The notes under the pieces: model-generated
The model's database searches: none
What the model was told of the DNA's origin: nothing
Seen by the model: only the letters and a program-made list of their open reading frames with translations
From: Arbacia lixula
Lineage: Eukaryota; Echinodermata; Echinoidea; Arbacioida; Arbaciidae
Assembly: GCA_963669155.1 (NCBI GenBank)
Contig: OZ022583.1
Coordinates: 17,602,805 to 17,666,804, forward strand
Direction of reading: 5' to 3'
Length of the DNA stretch: 64,000 nucleotides
Program-made: the position numbers and the translations under genes
Part shown: piece by piece, positions 1-62,355 of the stretch
How positions within the stretch are numbered: position 1 is the stretch's first letter
How the letters are laid out: each line of letters opens with the position of its first letter

Positions 1-780
1 AACCAATAGAAACCAGTGAGATCTGATGGGGTTTTTTTTTTCAATTTTTTTCAATTTCAATTTATTCATATTTCTGTTCAATACATGTAAAATAAAAGCA
101 ATAATACATCAACATAGTCAGTCTTTGACAAAACAAAACTAGTATAATGATGCAAAATATTACATAATGGTCAATATCAAACATACAATGGATATAGGTA
201 AAGAAATATGAATGGGGCCTATTTAAAACAAGCTTGTAAATCGTATAGACCCCAAAATAATGTGGATTAAAAGAGTACGGATAAACAAATTGACCAAAGA
301 AATAAACAAAAGGAATCATAAACAACTCAAGAAACAACATGAAAACAAATCGAGAACAAAGGAGTGTAAAATACGAAGTTAAACCAGTAGAAACTAGAGG
401 ATTGTACTGGCATTGAAGACAAGTAGAAACCGATAGAAACCAGTAGATTTCACTAGTATTGTAATATAAAACAGTGAGATCTAATGGTTGAAAAGCAGTG
501 TAAAGTCTGATTTCAAAATGATTATTTTGGGGGCATACTGGATCCTGTTCTAATTTTCTGCTGGCTCCAGTGGGTACTCTCGACTGGCTTGTAATGGTTC
601 CAGTAAGGATTTCTACTGGTCTCCCAATGGATCAAGTAGGATTTCTTCTGGTCTTCTAAATGTAATCGCAGTGATTCCCACTGGTCTTCTACTGGTCTTT
701 TAATAGACCCAGTAGAGATTCCTACTGGTCTTCTACTTGATCCATTAAGGATTTCTAACATGACGTAATATTCTTAAAAA
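1..780. repeat. ACCAGTAGAA minisatellite, copy 1
   Basis: Irregular tandem words such as AAACCAGTAGAAACCAATAG and GTGAGATCTAATGGTTTGAA at 1-30 and 380-490, switching to the complementary strand (CTACTGGTCTTCTACTGG) at 530-760. An unrelated AT-rich stretch (40-380) sits between. The same repeat forms 21.1-23.1 kb. Confidence 0.8.
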
Positions 781-879
781 GCCAACTAATCCTAATCTCA
801 TATATGTAATAATCCCAAATTCAGTCTTATCCTACTCCTACGATCACTTCAAGCAATTGCTGTATGACCCAAGTGTTAT

Positions 880-1250
880 TATAATTAATACAGGACGTTT
901 ACCACTTTAAAACATTTATCTGAGATGCTCATGAATATTCATGCATGTATTAGGCCTTTTTGTATTTTTAAATAGATAACCCCCACATAACCAGATATAT
1001 CAAAGTATATAATACCAATAAATGATTTGAATTTTAAACATGATATAGCGAATGTCACCTACTCAAAAGTGAAGACAATAATGATAACAACGAAAAATGC
1101 TCGTCTTATGTAGGTTAATACTAACCAATATCTTGCGAAGCTTATAACCATATTACTATATAATGTACATGATTGTATATGAAAGTGCATGTGTGTGGAA
1201 GAGTACGAAATAGGATAGGAATAGGATAATCGGATAGGTTAGGAAATGAA
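880..1250 (+). repeat. Minisatellite-associated spacer, copy 1
   Basis: From GAGATGCTCATGAATATTCA onward, this matches 22258-22600 at diverged level in the same order (AAATAGATAACC, GTGAATGTCACCTACT, GAAGACAATAATGATAACAA, AGGATAGG runs). The spacer and minisatellite therefore travel as one dispersed repeat. Confidence 0.75.
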
Positions 1251-8107: not shown

Positions 8108-11100
8108 TTCCTCTCTCTCTCTCTCTCTCCGTCATCATTGTCGCATGTAGTTCAGCCCGCTCCCGCGTCACGTGGCGTTCAGGAGGAAGTCTCGGGCCTC
8201 TGTGAAGGAACTCCGCGCCATCGGTCGCCGCTGCATCGAGGCGCGGATCGCGGCCCTGACCAGAGGCGACGAGGCGATCCCGAGGGACATCTTGACGTAC
8301 ATCTTGGAGGCGTCCCACAACCTGAGTGACCAGAGCTTTGGAATGGAGGACATGCTTGATGAGTTCTGTACCTTCTTTGGTGCAGGTGAGAACGCCCCCC
8401 CCCCCCCCTTCTTTCCCCGCCCATTCAAGATAGACATTTATGAAATTCATACAACATTAGTTTTCCCTTTTGCCATTTGTTTGAATGATTATCATTGCTC
8501 AATTAGCCTAACCGCATAAAGGGGATAGGCATCCCATAACACGCAGCGACATCCGAATTTTGGTTGCAGTCATGCCCGTTTCCGGTGTAATACACTGGTA
8601 CACCAGACCGGAAGTGGATATGGCTGCAAACCAAAATCCGAATATGAACATGGGATGAATTTTCTTTAGCGGTATGATGATTGTTTTGTGGGGTTTTTTT
8701 CCTTCATTTTTTTTATTTGAGACAGTTTTTCCTTGTATTCTTTCTACATTCCAGGACAGGAGACTACTGCCACTCTGCTTGCCTTCTTCATCCTTCACCT
8801 GGGCCGAAATCCACATATCATGGCAAGGTATTCAACAACAATCAAGATGTCAAACTATTATGTATTATATGAACCAAACTATAATTCCTAAATCTATCAG
8901 GCTCGACTAGCACATGTGCTATATCTGACTCCATATTGCCATTAGTTGTAAATCATCTCTGACGGTTGAAAAAAAAATGTTGTTATGACATGTGTGTTAA
9001 GTATTCATGTATCCATGTAATGAAATTGTCAGTAGAAATGTCATGTTACTGTAAGTAGTTTCATATATTCTTGTCAATGATGATGATGATGATGGTAATA
9101 AAACAATCAATCAATCAATCAATCAGTCAATCAATAATTACAGGCTCCGCTTCTGTCTGAACCCCTCCACCTACAAAGGAGAAACATGTCTAGAGGATGT
9201 AGCCTGGCTCCCAGGCTGTCCTGATAAATAAAAGTGTCTGGTTGCAGGAGACTAATCATTCTCGATTTCAGTACGGCTCGAACCCGCACGAGCTGAAAAT
9301 ATTAGGAGAATGAAAGTGATTAGTACGACACTGTATTTTTAAGTTTGAATGACAAATGTCCAAGTCTGGAAGTTAGGCTGTATATTAGGTGGGATTGTGG
9401 TGGGGAAATACCTCTGTGTGTTATACATGTCCTCTCCATGTAATTCATAGTGGTAAACTCGTTGCATTTGTTTGACCGGCTAGCTGAAGTCAAGGCTAAC
9501 AGGTCTGGCTGATTTCTTCTGGTGATATATGTTTTTTTTTTATAGATTAAGAGAAGAGGTGCTGTCTGTTCTGAAGGATAAAGATTTTGTGGAATACGCA
9601 GATGTTACAAAGATGTCTTACCTGGGATTGGTAAGTATTATATCATAGATGTTCTTTTGCGAATGTTCCGTGGTGTATCACATAACTTTGTGATCCACAT
9701 GAATGTAGATAAACTGATAGATCATTGAATTGATTGATAGTAAATACTTTAAGCCACTTAAAATACATATGAGATTGCCTCCATGCCCAATGGATGAACA
9801 GGAGACTCCTGAATATGATTATATGCATGATTTCGGTCTTGCCTACTTTGTTTTTAATGTATTTGATTTTTGCTTTCACTGGAAATGTACGAATATTAAT
9901 GTAGCAGCATATTCATACAACAACAACACATATTTATATTTTAGGCTTACACCCAGTAGTAAGGACAGCATGCTCCAACCTGAAAACAAGTTTTAAAAAA
10001 ACGTCCGGGGATAAGGTCGCTGTGCGATAACCAGTAGTTTACAGGTTCAAATTTTATTTTACTTGTTTTTCATTCATTGACAGGATGGGACACGCTATCC
10101 TTACTACGAAGTATAACGCTTAATTTTTTTTTCACAATTTAAATTACCTGAGAATGCCCTTTCACCAAAGTCCATCTTTGTTTGCTTCAGGTGATGAAAG
10201 AGGTGTTTCGAATCTCTCCTCCAGTGGGTGGCGCCACGAGGAAGCTGCACTGTGATACAGAGATGTCTGGTTACAAAGTCCCAGCAGGGGCAACGTTTAT
10301 GGTAGGTTGTCATAAAGTGCTTCGACCGTAATTTTTATTTGTCAGGTACATATGTATGTGGATATAGCTACCGTTTGATAAGTCGATTTCACCAATCACG
10401 TTCTTTTTGTCGAACCGAGATTCAAACAGTTCGATGAAGAGCGCATTCTCGTTTTCGACGATACGCGTCACACACCTCAAAAGGAGCAAAATTGAGAGGG
10501 GGAAGGACAACAGAGGAGGTTGCTTATTTCAACAAACTTATTTGTTAAGTTTGCGAAAGCAATGCACTTTCTACTTGAATAATTAGTATATTTAGGAAGT
10601 TTTTTTTTATTTTATGGTCATACATTGTCTGTCGACAATCATGATACAGTTAATGACTCGTTACCCTGTGAAAGAACAAAAAAATGTATAACCCTTCACA
10701 AACTTATTAATATATACATTTATACATTTATACATATATAGAGCGCAGAAACTGTTCCATTAAGTGTATATTCTACTGCGCTTTATGTGACTCCTAAAAT
10801 GTTTATTAATTAAATAGATGTGTTTTGAGCTTTGATTTAAAGTTGTTTACGGATGTTGCTTTCCTAACTTCCAGGGGTGAGCTATTCCAGAGCTTGGGGG
10901 CTACACAAGGAAATGCTCGATCACCTAGCGTGACTTTTGTTTTGAAGGATGGAATCTGTAAAAGCAGAGGATCCGTTGAACAGCGCAAATTGCGACCATG
11001 ATTACTGGTTTTATACCTCAATAATTCTGTAATGTAGCCAGGAGCTTAACCAAGAAGTGCTTTGTATACAATTAGTAAGACCTTGAATGATATTCTCTGC

Positions 11101-12406
11101 CGTATACATGATAAATGCTTATTTCTTTTAAATCATGATGAGAAAGATTACAGATGAGTAACCTTTTGGGAATATATTTCTTTTTCTTTTTCAAATGCCA
11201 GACATCGATGTTGGTGATGGGACGCCATGAAGATCACTTTAAGGACCCACTCACGTTTGACCCAGACCGCTTCACACGGGATGAAGACAAGTAAGACTTG
11301 AGAGCTGAACCCTTACATTACCGGGCCTTGAAAACCCCTTCTTTTTCAGAGAGATGGGGGTGGGGGGGGGGGGAATTTTCGCGTTTCAATATTTGCATTT
11401 GAGTTTAGTTTAGTATCAATTTCATTCATATTGTTAGTTTGTAAATCAACGAAGTGTAATTTTATCTCATGGAAATGTATAGCTGGTTTGTAAATCAACG
11501 AAGTGTAATTTTATCTCATGGAAATGTAAAAAAGGTTCGACCAATCCATTGATTCTTATTCCGTATGAAGCAGGGGAAGCTAGTGTGACAAAACGATGAC
11601 GCTTCTAAACAACTTACTTCTTCTTTTTAATTGAATTTACTTCTGAAGGAGAGAATTCAAGATTAAACATTTTATAAATGAAATTAACAACAATTTGGAG
11701 ACCAAATTAAAACGAGGAAGGGAAAGCATATTTATATGTTAAAATGATTTTGCTTTTGAATGGTATAATAGGCTGATTTCATTTATTTAGCATTGATTTA
11801 AAGAAATATGTGTTTTCTCCTTTTTTCAGTCCTCTGTTTGCGCTTTTCCCATTTTCGCTCGGAGCCAGGAATTGTATCGGCCAGGTTTTTGCTCAGGTAT
11901 GTGAACATTGGTATATGATATGTGCTATGCATGGTGTGTTGTGGTATGGTACAGCATGGTATAATATGATATGGATGTGGAATGATGTCCTTCTTTCTTG
12001 TCAGTAATATGGAAATGTGCTTTCCACCAGCGTTTATCTATGTATACATACACGCTGGTGAATATTTTTTTCACAAATGATAGTAATTATTTCACATGAT
12101 TATACGCTGAACAATATCGTTTGGTGTATGACAGTGTATGCTTCACGAATATGACATACACATTTTCCCTATTGCTGTTCAGTCATGTTTTATTGTCTAG
12201 AGTGAAGACCTATCTAATTTATATCACTTCTACAGTATTATTAATTCATTATATGGTTATTGCAAGGGTGTCCATGACCAAGTGCTAGGTGTTTTAAACT
12301 CCTTTTAGAAGTTGCTCACATGCCTCTCCTCTCCCGATGGCCTTCTTTCGCCCGATGTCATTTATCATGCACATAACCTCATTCCCCGTGTTTCTTAGTT
12401 AGTTAC

Positions 12407-19221: not shown

Positions 19222-20560
19222 TTATAGACTGTGGGCTACCTGGACCCCCCATCCCCCCCCCCCCCCTCCCATTTAGCCACAATTTTCTTTTGGGATTTTA
19301 TCTTAGCCAGGACCCTCAGCTATCAGAATCTGCCTGTTTGCCATTGTGCTAGTGGTGGGTGTGGCCTACAGAGCCGTTGCCATGGGAACGCATCAGTGAA
19401 ATATTGGAATTTTAGAAAATGGTTATTGCCATGGAAACGATCAGAAAAAATGCATTTTTTTAGTTAACAATTCAAATATATATATGTTAATAGCCAACTC
19501 AAAGCCAAATCGCCGCTTCTAAAAGTGTGAATATTAAGATATCAGACTCATATCAATGAAGACTGAGGTGTTTTTAAGTGCAAACAGTCATGCATAAGAT
19601 CACCGTTGCTATGACAACACCATGGTGCAAGAAATACTGAAATTGCAAAAAAAAATAAGAAATTGCCATACATTTATCATATGGTGACATAAAAAATACA
19701 AAATTAATGTTCAAGTATACATTTATTAAGGTGCCCAGCTGATTCAGATTGCAATTTAAGTCATAACAGATCACGATTATGACTAAAAATGGTAGTTGCC
19801 ATGGAAACGATATGAACCAAAAAAGCAATTTTGTTAGAAAACCATTCAAATATATTTACATACAAAGCAAAAAAACCTAACCCTAGCTTAAATTTGTATG
19901 CATATTTAGATGACAGAATAGTAGCAATCAAGTTTAATTCATTTCTAAGTGATAACTATTACCCATAAGATGACTGTTGCTATAGCAACACCATGGTACC
20001 CAAAATATTGAACTTACAGAAATATAAGAAAGTGCCATATATTTCTCAAATGGTAACATAAAAACACAATATTAGCGTCTAAGTATACATTTATCAAGGT
20101 GCCCAGTTAATTCTGATTGGAATCTATCATGTAAGGTCATGATCATACCTAGAAATCGTGGTTGTCATGGAAACGATATATCAAAAAATTATTCTCTTTT
20201 AGAACAAACATTAAAATATATGTAATTACACAGCAAAAACCTTATCCTAGTTTATAGTTTGATGAATATTTAGATGCCACAATAGTAGCAATCAAGCTTG
20301 AGTCATTTCCAAGTGATAACTATCACTTATAAGATGACTGTTGCTATGCCAACGCCATGGTACTGAAAATATTGAACTTTCAGAAATATAAGAAAGTGCC
20401 ATATATTTCTCAAATGGTCCCATAAAAACACAATATTAGCGTCTAAGTATACACTTTGCAATGTGCCCAGTTTATTCTGATTGAAATCTTAGTCAATTAA
20501 GGTCATGTTCATGGGCAAAATATGTGTATTTGTATGGTAACGATACGAAAAAAGGGTGAT
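19222..20560 (+). repeat. X-box-like palindrome array, copy 1
   Basis: Tandem units of about 365 bp, each with two palindromes of the GTTGCCATGGAAAC type. Occurrences: 19376, 19425, 19605, 19795, 19976, 20161, 20340 and a degenerate one near 20527. Apart from the first pair, spacing is 179-190 bp. The palindromes alternate between a GTTGCCATGGAAACGAT form and a GTTGCTATAGCAAC form, with conserved unit sequence (AAGTATACATTTATNAAGGT, GTGCCCAG) between. The leader (19222-19375, CTCAGCTATCAGAATCTGCC) recurs in the inverted copy. Confidence 0.9.
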
Positions 20561-21109
20561 TTTAGTGCAAAAAAATAGCACAAAACTTAATCCCAGTTTG
20601 CAGTATTATGATGGCTTATATTTTCAAATGATTTGAATGAATAGTATTGAATTCTTAGGTGCTTATGGTCATGCCTATTTTGCAATCAATGTGAACTACT
20701 TGGTTAGCATACGCAATGTATCACTGACATATATACTGTACATCTCACCCCTTTAGCACCAAAAGACACACTGAAAGTGTATAGAGCTATGAATTCCAAA
20801 CTTTCCATACGAATGCCTTCAAGATTTGTTGTCAATCATGGTCCTCGTCATGACAAATACTGTTGCTTTAGCAGGTACATAACAAAAATACAAATTATTA
20901 AAGAATTCAACCTAAGAAACACCACAAAACATATAGAAAGTAACAAGGTACATATACATGACTTTTGTAACTGTGCTTATGATTGTACATAAGATCCGGA
21001 AATTCAAGGTTGTCGAGGTCATGCGTAATTGCCAGTTACAATGTCAATACACTGGTGCAAAACATTGAATGTATTATACCAGAATATGATGTATTACGCT
21101 ACATCCCAG

Positions 21110-22254
21110 GTCGAAATTCCCATAGAAACCAGTAGAAACCAGTAGAGACCGTCTACTGGTTTCTACTGGTCCAGTAGAGTCTACTGGTCTGAAGAGGAAC
21201 TACGAAATCAAACCAGTAGAAACCAGTAGAAACCAGTAGAGTCTAATGTGTTGAAGACCAGTAGAAACCAATAGAAACCAGTGAGATCTAATGGTTTGAG
21301 AAGGAGTGTGAAAAAAACAAAGTCAAACCAGTAGAAACCATTAGAGACCAGTGGATTCTAATGGTATTGAAGACCAGTAGAAACCATTAGAATCCACTGG
21401 TCTCTAATGGTTTCTACTGTTTTTGACTTTTTTTTTACACTCCTTTTCAAACCATTAGATCTCACTGGTTTCTATTGGTTTCTACTGGTCTTCAATACCA
21501 TTAGAATCCACTGGTCTCTAATGGTTTCTACTGGTTTGTTTTTGTTTTTTCACACTCCTTCTCAAACCACTAGATCTCACTGGTTTCTATTGGTTTCTAA
21601 TTGTCTTCAATACCATTTGAATCCACTGGTCTCTAATGGTTTCTACTAGTTTGACTTTGTTTTTTTCACACTAATAGAAACTAGTGAGATATAATGTTTT
21701 GAAAAAGAGTGTGAAAAATTCAAAGTCAAACCAGGAGAAACCATTAGAGACCAGTGAAACTTAATGGTTTGAAAAGGAGTGTGAAAAATACAGAGTCAAA
21801 CCAGTAGAAGCCATTAGAGACCAGTGAATTCTACTGGTGGAGACCAGTATAAACCAATAGAAACCAGTAAGACCTAATGGTTTGAAAAGGAGTGTCAAAA
21901 ATTCAAAGTAAAACCAGTAGAAACCAATAGAAACCAGTGAGATCTAATGGTTTGAAAAGGAGTGTGAAAAATACAAAGTCAAACCAGTAGAAACCATTAG
22001 AGACCAGTGAATTCTCCTGGTATTGGAGATCAGTAGAAACCAATAGAAACTAGTGAAATATAATGTTTGGAAAAGGAGTATGAAAAATACAAAGTCAAAC
22101 CAGTATAAACCAATAGAGACCAGTGAGATCTAATGGTTTGAAAAGGAGTGTGAAAAATACTAAGTCAAACCAGTAGAAACCATTAGAGACCAGTGAATTC
22201 TACTGGTAATGGAGATCAGTAGAAACCAATAGAAACCAATAGAAACCAATAGAA
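21110..22254. repeat. ACCAGTAGAA minisatellite, copy 2 (strand-switching)
   Basis: Dense AAACCAGTAGAAACCATTAG words with AAAAGGAGTGTGAAAAATAC spacers. Orientation flips at about 21380 and back at about 21665, forming palindromic junctions. No stable unit length; units of roughly 100-130 bp can be traced from 21700 on. Confidence 0.9.
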
Positions 22255-23140
22255 ATAGAGATGCTCATGAATATTCATGCATATATTTACGTGTCCTAAT
22301 TTTGTACTTTTAAATAGATAACCTCCACCTAACCAGATAAAAGGAATTTTACCAAGTAATGATTTCAAGTTTAAACGTAAAATAGTGAATGTCACCTACT
22401 TAAGTGAAGACAATAATGATAACAACAACAAAAATGATCTTCTTAAATGTAAGTTAGAGTAACCAATATCTTATGAACCTTATAACCGTACTGCTATATA
22501 TATGAAAGTCTGTGAAAGATAGAGTAGGAATTAGGATAGGTATAGGATAGGATAGGAATAAATATAGGATAGGATAGGGTTAGGTTAAAACGATAAGGAA
22601 ATATGCCATAATTCGGATTATCATATACTAAATTTAAATTGATGTTTCATCATTATTTTTAATTTTGATTCCTATTGGTCTCCTGATGGCTCCAGTAGGT
22701 ATTCTACTAGTTTCTACTGGTATTCTGATGGATCCAGGAGAAATTGCTACTGGTTTCTACTGGCACACTACTGGTATTTTTCTAATGGTTTCTACTCGAA
22801 ATCATTTCACTTTCCATATTCAAACCAGTAGAAAAATTCCAATAGAAACCAGTAGGAAGCTCTATTGGATCCAGTAGAGATTCCTACTGGTTTCTACTGG
22901 TCTTCTATTGGATCCAGTAGAGATTCCTACTGGTTTCTACTGGTATTCTACTGGTCTTCTATTGGTCTTGTATTGGATCCAGTAGAGATTTCTACTGGTT
23001 TTTACTGGTATTCTACTGGTATTTTTCTAATGGTTTCTACTGGAAATTATTTCACTTTCCATATTCAAACCAGTAGAAAATTTCCAGTAGAAACTAGTAG
23101 AGATTCTAATGGTTTTTCTCTACTGGTTTCTACTGGTTTT
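22255..23140. repeat. Minisatellite spacer and opposite-strand block
   Basis: 22258-22600 is the counterpart of 880-1250. 22665-23140 consists of TTCCTACTGGTTTCTACTGG-type words, the complementary-strand form of the minisatellite, with repeated TTTCACTTTCCATATTCAAA. Confidence 0.85.
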
Positions 23141-23362
23141 TCGTCCTGGGTTTTATGTTATGCATGTATATATACATATGTAGTTTTATAAACTCAATAG
23201 TAAAGTGAAAACATAATACCATACAATTCAATTTTAATTGTCACCTTCATCACTGTCACCATCCACAGACTCTTCCCGCACATTGAAAAAACATGTATCT
23301 TAGTATGCTGGACATCCTCATCCTGAGCATGCAACATACATGTACCATGGTGAGATACCATG

Positions 23363-23569
23363 CAGGGCCGTCGCCAGGGGGGGGTGCGGAGGGTGCGAAC
23401 GCACCCACCTTCAGAACCATAAAAAAAAAAACACAAGAACATCAAAAAGAAACAAAACCGGAGGGGGGGGGGAGGGTGGTAGGGAACCGACAAGCTATAT
23501 AACTGCATGAAATTGAGTTAATCATGGGCGGAAAACCCGGGGGAACAAAAATTGTTAGGAAAACGTCAT

Positions 23570-23623
<54 letters not shown>

Positions 23624-23746
23624 ACTGAGAGCATTTTCAGAGACTGGGCGGGATAAAAAAAAAAATGTGTTTTTGTGTTTTTGTTTTTGTTTTTTCATAA
23701 AAAGCACCCCCCCCCCCCCCCTAGAAAAAAGCTGGTGTCGGCCCTG
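23363..23746. mobile_element. CAGGGCCG TIR element with 5-bp target duplication
   Basis: Starts CAGGGCCGTCGCCAGGGG and ends CTAGAAAAAAGCTGGTGTCG then GCCCTG; the ends are inverted. It is flanked by CCATG at 23358-23362 and 23747-23751. The interior is mostly homopolymer, including a C-run of roughly 50 bp (23572-23623). Confidence 0.7.
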
Positions 23747-23879
23747 CCATGACAATGGCCTAAGACCAACATCCAAAACCAGTTGAAAAGAAAACAAACA
23801 GATAACGAGATACATTCGCCAAGGCGACAAGAAAGCACAAGAGATGAAAGTGCCTCACATCATCTTGGTATCGCTTTGT

Positions 23880-24830
23880 ATGTGCTTAGGATATCAATTT
23901 TATTTTTGCCGCCATGGTGTTGTCATAGAAACAGTAATTTGAGGTATGACAATTATCACTTAGAAATGATTCGATCATGATTACTACCATTCTGGCATAC
24001 AAATATTCATAACACCATAAACTAGGATTAGGTTTTAGGCAATGTATTTACATATATTTGAATAGTTTCCTAACAAAATTGCCTTTTTGGTTCATATCGT
24101 TTCCATGGCAACTACTATTTTTAGGTATCATCGTGATCTGTTATAACTTAAATTCCAATCTTAATCAACTGGGCACCTTAATAAATGTATACTCGAACAC
24201 TAATTTTGTGCTTTTAGGACGCCATATGATAAATATATGGTAATTTCATATAGTTCTGTAATTTTACTATTTCTGTCACTATGGTGTCGTCATAGCAACG
24301 GTGCTCTTATGCATGACTATTCGCACTTAAAAATACCTCAGTCTTCATTGATCATGAGTCTGATATCTTAATATTTACAATTTTAAAAGCGGGGATTTGG
24401 CTTTGGGTTGCCTATTAAAATATATTTGAATTGTTAACTAAAAATGCCCTTTTCTGATCGTTTCCATGGCAATACCAATTTTTTACGCATGATCTTGTCA
24501 TTAAATGGCTTAGATTCCTATCAGAATCAACTGGGCAACCTGTGAAATGTATACTTAGACACAAATTTTGTTTTTTTATGTTACTATTTAAGAAATATAT
24601 GGCAATTTTGTAACTTCCACAAATTCCAAAATTTCACTGACATGTTACCATGGCAACAGCCCTGGAGGCCACACCCACCACCAGCGCAGTGGCAAACAGG
24701 CAGATTCTGACAGCTGAGGGTCCTGCCTAACATAAAAACATGGTTTGAAATTGTGGCTAAGGGGAGGGACCTTTTCGGTTTCTGGCCCATGGCCTATTAG
24801 GGCAGATTTAAAAAAAAAACACTTGGGGAA
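23880..24830 (-). repeat. X-box-like palindrome array, copy 2 (inverted)
   Basis: Reverse-orientation counterpart of 19222-20560. Palindromes at 23919, 24099, 24286, 24460 and 24644 are spaced 174-187 bp. The leader (GGCAGATTCTGACAGCTGAG, CCACACCCACCACCAG) lies at 24660-24725, mirroring 19310-19375. Confidence 0.9.
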
Positions 24831-25254
24831 GTCGTAAATTACCGATCCTACATAATAATGTTCTCCATGTATTAATATGCACTTCATTATCACTGCATAG
24901 GTGGTAACACACAATCAACCCAAAACAGATTAAGTTAAATAAAAATTAATATTGTCTATGTAAGTTTTTTGATCTTGCATGATTTTTGACATGTCAATTA
25001 CTTGTGAATGCTTTCAGTGGCGTAGACAGACCTGTTCGTACACCTGGGGGGGGGGGGGGATGACTGGGCTGCCAGCAATCAAGAGGGCGCGAAAGCGCCC
25101 GAGCGAGGGAGCGAAGCGACCGAGCCGGGGGATGGTGTGGGAGGGGGGTGTCCCCCCCTCCCACGGTAGGGAGCTTTTGCAATTTTGAACGTGAAATCGT
25201 GCAATCTGATGCATACTTAATGAGGTAAAATAACCACACAAGCGTTCACGCACA

Positions 25255-25297
<43 letters not shown>

Positions 25298-25534
25298 TGT
25301 ACTACCCTTAAATGGACAGTCATAGTTTCGACAAGATCTACACACCGTGGCATACGAGTACGGAATGGACTATTATTTTGCAGGGAGGGTTCGTAATGGA
25401 TCCAGGGGTAGTTTGGGTACCATTTGGCTTGAAGCAGAATTTTCTGCGGTTTAGTTTCTAGTACGGGAGCAAGAAGTTGGGGTGATTGGGGCTAACCAAG
25501 TCGTTAAAACCGGCATCAGTTTCATCATCATCTT

Positions 25535-26950
25535 TCACCCTCAACGGCACTTTCTTCTGGTTGCACTTCCGTAAGAACAGCCTTTCTCCGACATTATCCG
25601 ATTTTGATGTAGACGGCTGTTCGCCATCATGTTCTTCTTTCTCGTTATGCTTGAAAAAGAAGTAATCTTTGATGTTTTCAACTTCTTATTATGAGCCATC
25701 CTAGAACCCGAAAATCAATTCACGTTGTGAATTTTGTAAGGGACACACTCATATATAGTTTCCCCTTAAAAAGTTAAGGAAGACAAGGCCTCCGAGGACT
25801 CGCTACAAAAAAAGCACCCCCCCCCCCCCCAAGCAAAATAGCATAACTTTTTATCGAAGAGGTTTTGGGCAAAAATGATTTGCAGGATTGTTCTTCACCT
25901 CATTGACTAACTTTGTGTGAAAATCGACATTAATCCAAATAGTCCATAGCATGGAGTGGGCAAATTTTAAAGGCAAAAAATATAGACTTTTTCAAAAGTC
26001 ACAAGGGTAATTGTTTATGCGATTTAACAGTACATTTTGGCATTTCTTTATTTTCTGCCGATCTTTAAAGTTATTCACTCAACCATGACACGGAAATGAC
26101 TTCCCACATGTTTACCATTAAAAAGGTACATCCGTTCCATCTTTGTTTAANNNNNNNNNNNNNNNNNNNNNNNNNNNNNNNNNNNNNNNNNNNNNNNNNN
26201 NNNNNNNNNNNNNNNNNNNNNNNNNNNNNNNNNNNNNNNNNNNNNNNNNNNNNNNNNNNNNNNNNNNNNNNNNNNNNNNNNNNNNNNNNNNNNNNNNNNN
26301 NNNNNNNNNNNNNNNNNNNNNNNNNNNNNNNNNNNNNNNNNNNNNNNNNNTCACCCTCAACGGCACTTTCTTCTGGTTGCACTTCCGTAAGAACAGGCCT
26401 TTCTCCGACATTATCCGATTTTGATGTAGACGGCTGTTCGCCATCATGTTCTTCTTTCTCGTTATGCTTGAAAAAGAAGTAATCTTTGATGTTTTCAACT
26501 TCTTATTATGAGCCATCCTAGAACCCGAAAATCAATTCACGTTGTGAATTTTGTAAGGGACACACTCATATATAGTTTCCCCTTAAAAAGTTAAGGAAGA
26601 CAAGGCCTCCGAGGACTCGCTACAAAAAAAGCACCCCCCCCCCCCAAGCAAAATAGCATAACTTTTTATCGAAGCGGTTTTGGGAAAAATGATTTGCAGG
26701 ATTGTTCCTTAACTCATTGACTAACCTCTGTGTGAAAATGACATTAATCCAATTAGTCATGCATGAGTGGGCAAATTTTAAAGGCAAAAAATATAGATTT
26801 TTCAAAAGTCACAAGGGTAATTGTTTATGCCGATTTAACAGTACATTTTGGCATTTCTTTATTTTCTGCGATTTTTAAAGTATATTCACTCAACCATGAC
26901 ACGGAAATGACTTCCAATGTTTACATAAAAGGTCATGTTACATCTTTGTC
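25535..26950. other. Gap-flanking direct duplication (probable assembly artefact)
   Basis: The segment starting TCACCCTCAACGGCACTTTC occurs at 25535 and again at 26351, the first base after 200 Ns (26151-26350). About 600 bp repeat at an offset of about 816. The first copy carries many single-base insertions or losses that increase toward the gap, as at a low-quality contig end. Confidence 0.85.
26151..26350. other. Assembly gap (200 N)
   Basis: Run of 200 undetermined bases inside hAT-like copy 1. Confidence 1.
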
Positions 26951-28070
26951 AAAATTTCCAGTTGTATTTTTTCACAAAAATAAATGGTTTTTAAAAGTTT
27001 CAAACTCAAGATGGAGGAGTATTTTTTAAATGGTTTAAATGTCGGGATAGGTGTATCGAGAGATGGATGATAAACAATGAAAGGACAGAGATGGAATTCA
27101 TCAAAAATTCATATGACAGAAACCCCAAATTACCCTTGTGACTTTTGAAAAGTTACATTTTTGCCTCTTAAATTTGCCCACTCACCCATGACTTATTGGA
27201 TATTTGGATTAATGTGATTTTCACACAAAAGTTAGTCAATAAGGTGAAAAACAATCCTGCCAAATTATTTTGCCCAAAACCTCTTTGATAAAAAGTAATG
27301 CTATTTTGCTTAGTGAGGACAAACCACAAGATAACCACAAAATACTTAAGATTTTCTCTTTTTACCGTCTGAATTGGCTTTCACTGTGTGAATGCGGCTA
27401 ATACCAATAAACACGATTACAATAATGATGAGGATTAATATCATCATCATGATAATTATCATTATTAATATTATAATTGTTATCATTATTATTTTTACTA
27501 TTATTATCATCATTATGAATTATCAAGTAAGCAAATATCATTCCCTCAAACCTGGGGGGGGGGGGGGGGGGGGGGGGATGATTGTACATGCATCCCCGTC
27601 ACCCCCCCCCCCCCCCCCCTCCCCCCGTTGTCTATGCCCCTGAATGTTTTCATGGGATATTAAACATGAAAATTAAGAAATATCCCACAAAAATTCTCTG
27701 ACCTTTTTTTTTGGTATTACGTTATACATGTATTTTGGTAAATAGCACCCCCACGTGGTGACGAGAGTTTGAGAAGGGGCCACAATCCTTGAAGCACGAA
27801 GAGACAAAAATAAATTGCGCTTTTTAGGGTTAAAGAGTCTGTTCCTACATTACATTATTATTATTATCATCATTATTATCATTATTAATATTACTATTAT
27901 TATTACTATGATGATGATGCCGTGCGGACGACGGAAAAGAGAAAAGTAATGAGCAAGTATTAGTTAGAACACTATATAGGTAATTACATAAGAAGAAATG
28001 ATCATGATCAGTGCAGTGCCTTGTGTGTATGAGAATGTGGATACATGCTAGTCTCACTAGCTGCCAGACC

Positions 28071-34657: not shown

Positions 34658-34930
34658 AGCAGACGTGGGTCTGAAATTCAGACTACATACACTTTTACAC
34701 ACATGTGTGTGTATTGGGAAAGCGCGCGACCCGGCGAATTGGTCCGCCCCTAGCGCCGAATTGGTCCGCGTGCCCAGGCGAATCCGACCGCGGGCAGGTT
34801 CGCCTGCTTTTTCGACCAGGCGTATCCGTCCGCAGGCAGCTGGGAGACCAAATCGCCTGGGAGGTGAATTCGCCTACGACACCGGTACCGCAACGCAATA
34901 TCCAGTCCGTGCTGCTTACTACTACGTGCT
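34658..34930 (+). repeat. 86-bp array 2 (right part) and GC-rich block, copy 2
   Basis: AGCAGACGTGGGTCTGAAAT...TATTGGGAAAGCG resumes the interrupted unit, followed by GGCGAATTGGTCCGC-type GC-rich repeats (34730-34890). Mirrors the order at 18420-19025 in inverse orientation. Confidence 0.8.
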
Positions 34931-60394: not shown

Positions 60395-62092
60395 CAGGGG
60401 CGTAGACAACGGGGGGGATGAGGGGGATGCATCCCCCCCACTTCACAAGGTGGGGGGGATGGCATGTACAATCATCCCCCCCACGTTTGGGGGAATGATA
60501 TGCTTACTTAATAATGATAATAATAGTAAAAATAATAATGATAGCAATTATAATATTAATAATGATATTTATCATGATGATATTAATCCTCATCATTATT
60601 GTAATCGTGTTTATTGGTATTAGCCGCATTCACATGGTGAAAGCCTATTCAGACAGTAAGTATTTTGTGGTTATCTCGTGGTTTGTCTTCACTAAGCAAA
60701 ATAGCATAACTTTTTATCAAAGAGGTTTTGGGCAAAATAATTTGGCAGGATTGTTTCTCACCTTATTGACTAACTTCTGTGTGAAAATCACATTAATCCA
60801 AATATCCAATAAGTCATGCGTGAGTGTGCAAATTTAAGAGGCAAAAATGTAACTTTTCAAAAGTCACAAGGGTAATTTGGGGTTTTCTGTCATATGAATT
60901 CTTGATGAATTCTATTTCTGGTGCATAACTTATGTCCTTTCATTGTTTATCATCCATCTCTCGATGCACCTACACCTATCCCGACATTTAACCCATTTAA
61001 CCCGTTTAAAAAATACTCCTACCTCTGGAGTTTGAAAATTTTAAAAACCCTTTATTTTTGTAAAAAAAACATTCAACTGGATATTTTGACAAATATGTAA
61101 CGTGACCTGCTATGTAAACATTGGAAGTCATTTCCGTGTCATGGTTGAGTGAATACACTTTAAAAATCGCACAAAATAAAGAAATACCAAAATGTACTGT
61201 TAAAACGGCATAAACAATTACCCTTGTGATTTTTGAAAAATTTACATTTTTGCCTTTAAAACTCGTGCATGACTAATTGGATTAATGTCATTTTCACACA
61301 GAGGTTAGTCAATGAATTAAGGAACAATCCTGCAAATTATTTTGCCCAAAACCGCTCCGATAAAAAGTTATGCTATTTTGCTTAGGGGGGGGGGGGGGGG
61401 GGGGCTAGATCTCGTCGAAACTATGACTGTCCATTTAAGGCATAGTGCAATGTATGTGTGTGTGTGTGAGAGAGTATGTGTGTGTGTGCGAGCACGCTTG
61501 TGTGTGTTATTTTACTTCATTTAGTATGCATCAGATTGCACGATTTCAAGTTCAAAATTGCAAAAGCTCCCTACCGTGGGAGGAGGGACACCCCTCTCCC
61601 ACACCCTCCCCTCGCTCGGGCGCTTTCGTGAGCGTGTCCCTTACATAATTCACAGCGTGAATTGATTTTCAGATTCTAGGATGGCTCATAATAATAAGTT
61701 GAAAACATCAAAGATCACTTCTTTTTCAAGCACAATGAGAAAGAAGAACATGATGACGAACAGCCGTCTACGTCAAAGTCGGATGATGTCGGAGATAGGC
61801 CTGTTCTTCCGGAAGTTGAACCAGAAGAAAGTGCCGTTGAGGGTGATGAAGCATCTGAGGCGAAAAATGATGATGAAACTGATGGAGGTTTTAACGACTG
61901 GGTTAGCCCCAATTAACTTCTTCCATTCCAGCACTAGAAACTCAACCGCAGAAAATTTTGATTCAAGCCAAAATGGGACCCAAACTACCCCGGGATCCAT
62001 CGCGAACCCTCCCTGCAATATTGTGTCAGTTCATTCTGTACTCGTATGCCACGGTGTGTAGATCTTTTCGAAACTATGACTGTCCATTTAAG

Positions 62093-62130
<38 letters not shown>

Positions 62131-62355
62131 ATGCACGCTTGTGTGTGTTATTTTACCTGATTAAGTATGCATCAGATTGCACGATTTCAAGTTCAAAATT
62201 GCAAAAGCTCCCTACCGTGGGAGGGGGGACACCCCCCTCCCACACCCTCCCCCCAGCTCGGTCGCTTCGCTCCCTCGCTAGGGCGCTTTCGCGCCCTCTC
62301 GAGCGTTGGCAGCCCAGCCATCCCCCCCAGGTGTACGAACTTGTCTACGCCACTG
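60395..62355 (+). mobile_element. hAT-like non-autonomous element, copy 2
   Basis: Begins CAGGGGCGTAGACAACGGGG, ends GTCTACGCCACTG. An exact 8-bp target duplication CCTTCAAA lies at 60387-60394 and 62356-62363. 1961 bp, inverted relative to copy 1. Contains (GT)n at about 61455-61490 and 62096-62128 and a relic coding segment at 61681. Confidence 0.93.
61681..61917 (+). pseudogene. Transposase N-terminal relic within hAT-like copy 2
   Basis: ATG opens MAHNNKLKTSKITS; shifting frame after ACTTCT gives an acidic, Ser-rich stretch (HNEKEEHDDEQPSTSKSDD ... ESAVEGDEASEAKNDD) ending FNDWVSPN and stop. The opening and acidic linker resemble N-termini of hAT/ZMYM-type transposases, but no BED finger or catalytic core is present. 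Copy 1 has the same short T run at this point, so either the shift predates both copies or an intron acceptor (TTCTTTTTCAAG) lies here. Confidence 0.45.

Follow-up and report, generated by a model that had tools for sequence, protein, structure and literature searches.

A stretch of 64,000 nucleotides of the Arbacia lixula genome (contig OZ022583.1, positions 17,602,805 to 17,666,804; hereafter the window, whose own numbering is used throughout) contains two arrays of 14-bp palindromes that resemble the X-box of RFX proteins. Both belong to a single foldback-like DNA transposon, of which they form the long inverted arms; it is non-autonomous and has 3-bp target site duplications (Table 1). The palindromes had been picked out in an original prediction made from the sequence alone, and all 12 that it listed were found in place, each 1–3 mismatches from GTTGCCATGGCAAC. 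Their number is far above chance: with up to three mismatches this pattern has 13 matches in the window, where 2.37 are expected, and none of 100 shuffles reached 13. The X-box form, RYYNYYATRRNRAC, has 23 strand-matches in the window against 2.92 expected, again with no shuffle in 100 as high.

There is one palindrome per ~182-bp unit, and the units alternate between class A (GTTGCCATGGAAACGAT) and class B (GTTGCTATGACAACACCATGG), the period of 364 reported by Tandem Repeats Finder (TRF) corresponding to two units. The left and right arrays are inverted copies of one another. Successive sites are 49, 180, 190, 181, 185 and 179 bp apart on the left and 180, 187, 174 and 184 bp apart on the right, in agreement with the predicted spacing of 174–190 bp in all but one interval. 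The odd interval of 49 bp is due to a deletion in the window copy, between 19412 and 19416, in which ~120–135 bp were lost; other copies keep about that much more sequence at this point, with the exception of L026, which has a larger insertion there. In nine long copies, 136 of the 144 intervals below 260 bp measure 170–195 bp (median 180), a count without the longer gaps caused by a lost site or by the intervening core. The closeness of this spacing to one nucleosome repeat had been regarded as unusual, but because it is set by the tandem unit it provides no evidence independent of the repeat. By coordinates, the outermost sites of the window copy are ~150 bp (left) and ~140 bp (right) away from the respective element ends, and a decayed extra left unit occupies 20452–20610. 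Class B units (e.g. 19605–19629) also have a second palindrome, CACCATGGTG, 11 bp after the X-box measured centre to centre, which is about one helical turn. CCATGG occurs near the right end of the element too.

The source genome was searched over 607 Mb, the window being on contig C8. A 401-base piece of the left arm gave 403 candidate places, and 40 of the 403 were scored (133 matches); the left outer terminal inverted repeat gave 413, of which again 40 were scored. The places read were those adjoining element arms or ends, and the twenty best, including the window's own, were fetched for structure. Across the fetched copies the ends are exact, TAGACTGTGGGCTACC on the left and GGCCCATGGCCTA on the right, and adjoin 3-bp target duplications. 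With a script seeking TAGAC and CTA, a perfect 3-bp duplication was found beside TAG...CTA in 18 of the 19 copies that have both ends; L020, where the right end was not reached, is outside this count. In the single exception, L019, the right end was placed at an internal repeat, and units run on beyond it. Four copies (L009–L012) have common flanks on both sides and hence represent one independent insertion; when they are counted as one, the proportion becomes 15 of 16. All four have a TTA duplication because they share a larger carrier.

Copies are scattered across many chromosomes. When a single mismatch is allowed, 98 right ends are found in the genome. It also has 118 exact A-then-B site pairs at array spacing, compared with none for a backward control. 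The long form, of 4.71–4.80 kb, accounts for 8 of the 20 copies, the rest being shorter, fused or interrupted by insertions. The long copy L017 has 8 left and 13 right units, that is 21 units of ~182 bp in two alternating classes. Thus the family has long terminal inverted repeats that hold tandem repeats, as well as defined ends and target site duplications at dispersed copies, which is the make-up of a foldback-like element and bears out the transposon origin that had been suggested as a possibility.

The two arrays had been described as facing each other across about 3.4 kb of minisatellite. They are indeed inverted copies, but they are the arms of one element, and the stretch between them is only partly minisatellite. 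The left part of the element core is followed by the right part within 12 bp in 18 of the 19 other copies, while L027 is without the right core and has 24 bp between the core and the right array. The sequence at ~21101–23151 is therefore a nested insertion; two free arrays separated by a minisatellite were rejected, as the other copies leave no room for it. The insertion is itself a foldback-like element, of ACCAGTAGAA type, with minisatellite arms and a unique centre. A second, partial copy of it lies at the very start of the window (1–1240), and the two match at 76% between 22258–22556 and 922–1238. The X-box element, in turn, apparently sits within a larger element, itself repeated and up to 16 kb long (18574 to ~34862). 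Flanks are common to the window copy and L010–L012 from ~18570, extending in L011 and L012 to at least 29150, past the X-box element, and the left edge of the common flank (18574) has an inverted partner near 34862.

Inside 19 of the 20 copies (up to 10 kb each) there is no stop-free stretch of more than 165 residues. A long open frame in L020 was rejected as an element gene, since it belongs to a nested retrotransposon (RVT_1). Long frames in a further locus, L041, were likewise rejected as microsatellite; here the left arm, on the small contig C38, is followed by a truncated core and then by CT/CA-rich microsatellite, over which the frames run (L041:227–1489). The full-length parent that the original prediction sought did not turn up, the copies read having no coding parent: none was found in the 20 copies, in pieces reaching 4 kb inward from 13 more left ends, or in 3-kb pieces at 2 right ends chosen for their lack of a listed array, ~80 of the 98 right ends not having been read end to end. 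Two known groups were considered. PIF/Harbinger elements have a 3-bp duplication that is TWA only, and were rejected because the duplications here include TTG, GAA, TGT, TCC, CCT and AGT. Galileo and the P superfamily have a target duplication of 7–8 bp and were rejected on its length, 3 bp here. As for a P-superfamily transposase with a THAP domain, the 20 copies contain no element-borne long frame that could encode one, and no genome-wide transposase search was made. No RNA families were found in the window, and no relatives in viral and prokaryote contigs, as expected for an animal repeat, although records near the source genome were possibly left out of the latter comparison.

Table 1. Features of the X-box transposon copy and its nested insertions (window coordinates).
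Feature	Position	Strand	Basis
Target site duplication TTA, left	19222..19224		comparison of copy ends
Complete copy of the non-autonomous, foldback-like transposon (ends TAG...CTA), including two nested insertions	19225..24796		ends, duplications and structure of 20 copies
Outer terminal inverted repeat, left	19225..19412	+	over 19264-19412, 124/149 aligned columns agree with the right repeat
X-box site GTTGCCATGGGAAC, outermost left	19376..19389	+	pattern matches
Left array of ~182-bp units, A alternating with B	19416..20610	+	profile matches; TRF period 364
X-box site, class A	19425..19438	+	pattern matches
X-box site, class B	19605..19618	+	pattern matches
X-box site, class A	19795..19808	+	pattern matches
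X-box site, class B	19976..19989	+	pattern matches
X-box site, class A	20161..20174	+	pattern matches
Class B site	20340..20353	+	one position off X-box in window and three close copies (4/19); fits in 14/19
Decayed eighth left site	20528..20541	+	X-box fit in 7/20 copies, not in window
Element core, left part	20611..21100		aligned in fetched copies
Nested insertion, foldback element of ACCAGTAGAA-type minisatellite, outside the X-box element	21101..23151		no room in other 19 copies
Element core, right part	23152..23364		within 12 bp of 21100 in 18/19 other copies
Nested poly-C element, CAGGGCCG.. inverted ends, outside the X-box element	23365..23745		among other 19 copies only L010 (part) and L011 match
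Right array, alternating B and A units	23826..24687	-	profile matches
X-box site, class B	23919..23932	-	pattern matches
X-box site, class A	24099..24112	-	pattern matches
X-box site, class B	24286..24299	-	pattern matches
X-box site, class A	24460..24473	-	pattern matches
Outer terminal inverted repeat, right	24621..24796	-	matches the left one; genomic copies
X-box site, outermost right	24644..24657	-	pattern matches
Target site duplication TTA, right	24797..24799		comparison of copy ends

The palindromes had further been said to stay recognizable while the sequence between them drifts, and this is true of some arms of the element. In a second, larger count, 33 loci supplied 27 left arms (not including that of the window copy, which has the deletion), 29 proximal (internal) right arms and 13 distal right arms, from which rows with less than 90% identity were dropped (1, 4 and 1, respectively). 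In the left arm (26 copies), diversity is 0.019 in the motif and 0.064 in the flank, and only 1 of 1457 shifts of the motif mask gives a value as low. The corresponding figures for the distal right arm (12 copies) are 0.025 and 0.054 (6 of 1380 shifts), so that the motif columns of both arms, which are the end arms of the long form, vary ~2–4.5 times less than their flanks. When L010–L012 are dropped too, the left arm gives 0.014 vs 0.063 and the other arms are nearly unchanged; the picture is also the same with simple runs removed from the flanks. Since likeness to the left arm or the left end decided which copies were picked, the overall diversity may be biased, though not obviously the comparison of motif with flank. 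Private substitutions in the left arm are likewise fewer in the motif (0.082 vs 0.222 per column; 4 of 1457 shifts). The prediction fails in the proximal right arm (25 copies), where diversity is 0.055 in the motif and 0.057 in the flank. The family thereby holds a natural control, with the motifs of the end arms protected and those in equal units of the internal arm not. The first count, which took in 19 left arms (L026 omitted) and 15 right arms (L010, L013, L015, L023 and L027 omitted), had shown lower motif diversity on the left (16 of 1200 shifts) and not on the right (371 of 880).

Units within the window were compared as well. Identity in the motif columns is 93% among class A units, 83% among class B units and 74% between the classes, compared with 70%, 65% and 43% in the remaining columns. 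Ranked by conservation against other 14-column stretches, the motif comes first between the classes (1 of 164) and in the top two within a class (2 of 165); the alignment of A with B may be drawn towards the motif, those within a class much less so. Paired units of the left and right arrays differ at 5 of 70 motif positions and 107 of 654 flank positions over all five pairs (p 0.025), and at 1 of 42 and 61 of 431 over the three clearest pairs (p 0.016). Among the nine long copies (L026 omitted), the motif ranks 1–2 of 125 in class B. That the motifs of the end arms have changed less than their surroundings suggests that the element needs its palindromes.

The published X-box is RYYNYY N1-3 RRNRAC (PMC2375033), and the palindromes fit this consensus with a 2-bp centre. 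In the form RYYNYYATRRNRAC it is matched by 11 of the 12 window sites, by 193 of 208 site copies in the first count (the decayed innermost left site being left out) and by 388 of 424 over the three arms of the second count, so the description of the palindromes as X-box-like stands. Among all 16384 perfect 14-bp palindromes only 32 fit the X-box form, and of the 25 position-letter pairs observed among the window sites, 24 are ones that the X-box tolerates. Variation among sites follows the looseness of the consensus, with p 0.005–0.007 if the centre is taken as AT and 0.02–0.03 without the two central bases. The AT centre of the X-box comes from the nematode literature. Host RFX genes are present, with 11 exon matches to PF02257 (RFX DNA-binding) at 6 places in the genome. 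The pattern GTTGCCATGGMAAC has 703 genome matches over both strands, compared with none for the backward pattern; among the 87 matches listed (C1, C2 and most of C3), 22 have a listed marker of the family no more than 5 kb away, and 65 have none among the markers listed within that distance.

On the favoured reading, the element would depend on the palindromes for its spread, as sites at its ends to which a protein binds, most likely host RFX. RFX dimers would occupy one X-box per nucleosome-sized unit and hold the end regions open, or bridge both ends, in RFX-rich cells, that is in ciliated cells and, by analogy with mammals, in the male germ line. A transposase supplied in trans would thereby reach the element ends. 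RFX2 reportedly regulates sperm formation in mammals (PMC4498915). We regard this proposal as about evenly balanced between right and wrong. A more far-reaching scheme is possible but doubtful, namely that the family turned its ends into arrays of host-RFX sites, one per nucleosome (8 on the left and 13 on the right in the long form), with RFX, a ciliary and germ-line transcription factor, acting as a transposition cofactor that opens or synapses the ends. The protection of end-arm motifs, and the lack of it in the internal arm, is the reason for favouring a role in cis, in the mobility of the element itself. RFX appears to be the best-fitting binder, and is preferred because a transposase site would match the X-box only by chance; a putative transposase is the main rival.

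Several observations weigh against this proposal. The lack of protection in the proximal right arm is clear both for diversity (404 of 974 shifts) and for private substitutions, which show no reduction in the motifs (590 of 974 shifts), and even in the distal right arm private substitutions are not clearly fewer in the motifs (448 of 1380 shifts). The contrast between arms is itself weakened somewhat by the short copies, including the window's, in which the proximal array adjoins the right end. For class A in the nine long copies, the motif ranks only 5–21 of ~160, several other stretches being as conserved, and the innermost left site has decayed, fitting the X-box in only 7 of 20 copies. The test of variation against degeneracy gives p 0.18–0.19 when the centre is written NN, as in PMC2375033. 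Finally, the association of RFX with the germ line is drawn from mammals.

The best of the competing explanations, to which we would give about one third of the probability, is that a putative transposase of the family uses the palindromes as secondary binding sites, in the manner of Galileo, and that they resemble the X-box through coincidence or convergence. There is a precedent in the THAP domain of Galileo, which binds extra sites within the tandem repeats of the long inverted repeats (PMC3688188). Restriction of motif protection to the end arms is what transposase sites predict, and there is a CCATGG core at the very right end of the element (TAGGCCATGGGCC). The small fraction of perfect palindromes that fit the X-box, and the adherence of the window variants to X-box letters, argue in the other direction.

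It is unlikely that the palindromes have no function and are simply part of a satellite-like unit, drifting slowly or homogenised by unequal exchange. Tandem repeats in general do homogenise, and the unprotected proximal arm, the class A motif that is not alone in its conservation and the decay of the innermost left site in 13 of 20 copies would all suit this explanation. However, homogenisation is not expected to spare 14 columns in each unit, and both the diversity of the left arm, matched in 1 of 1457 shifts, and the excess of identity between classes in the motif speak against it. A present use of the arrays by the host, as RFX-driven enhancers or as nucleosome-phasing elements whose motifs are kept by selection after insertion, is very improbable, since, despite the fewer private substitutions in left-arm motifs and the presence of RFX genes, the copies lie on many chromosomes, which makes selection on each of them unlikely, and the internal arm is unprotected.

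Galileo and Tetris already provide examples of foldback elements that combine tandem units with repeated binding sites. Galileo, a member of the P superfamily in Drosophila, resembles the present family in its long foldback-like inverted repeats, internal tandem repeats and repeated protein-binding sites (PMC3688188), and its authors propose that multiple sites give binding specificity. The purpose of such long inverted repeats with repeats inside them is largely an open question for foldback elements in general, and the authors call their result the first demonstration (PMC3688188). The sites there are bound by the THAP domain of the element's own transposase, and two additional ones are reported (PMC3688188), whereas here the site is an X-box-like palindrome and the long form has 8 left and 13 right units. 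The present family also differs from Galileo in its 3-bp target duplication and in having no known transposase. Tetris (TIR-220) of Drosophila virilis is again a foldback element, with ~220-bp tandem repeats of variable unit number in the outer domain of its inverted repeats, and there too the source of transposase was not found (PMC4079207). The available part of that description mentions no conserved palindrome in each unit and no host-factor motif (PMC4079207); here two classes of unit alternate.

For the binding of an inverted terminal repeat by host RFX there is a precedent in adeno-associated virus, where RFX1/RFX3 are the proteins involved (PMC5760533). That case concerns a viral D sequence for which binding was shown, and this one predicted sites in the tandem array of a transposon. 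The X-boxes treated in PMC2375033 are upstream of genes, unlike those found here, which recur every ~180 bp along a mobile element. In the literature, judged mostly by titles and abstract openings, no X-box arrays within a transposon were found. If host RFX does bind the arrays, the mobility of a transposon would be tied to a ciliary and germ-line regulator, and a sizeable share of the perfect X-boxes of the genome would be mobile (22 of the 87 matches listed, as above). Mobile X-boxes matter for anyone predicting RFX targets.

Elsewhere in the window, another repeat family forms an inverted pair at 25015–27560 and 60449–62355, with 85–88% identity; an assembly gap (N) at 26151–26350 lies inside the first of these. 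On the other side of the transposon, a CYP46A1-like cytochrome P450 exon is found at 8151–8519. Downstream of this exon there is a match to a haem motif (by pattern only) at 11852, and the transposon follows ~7 kb further on.

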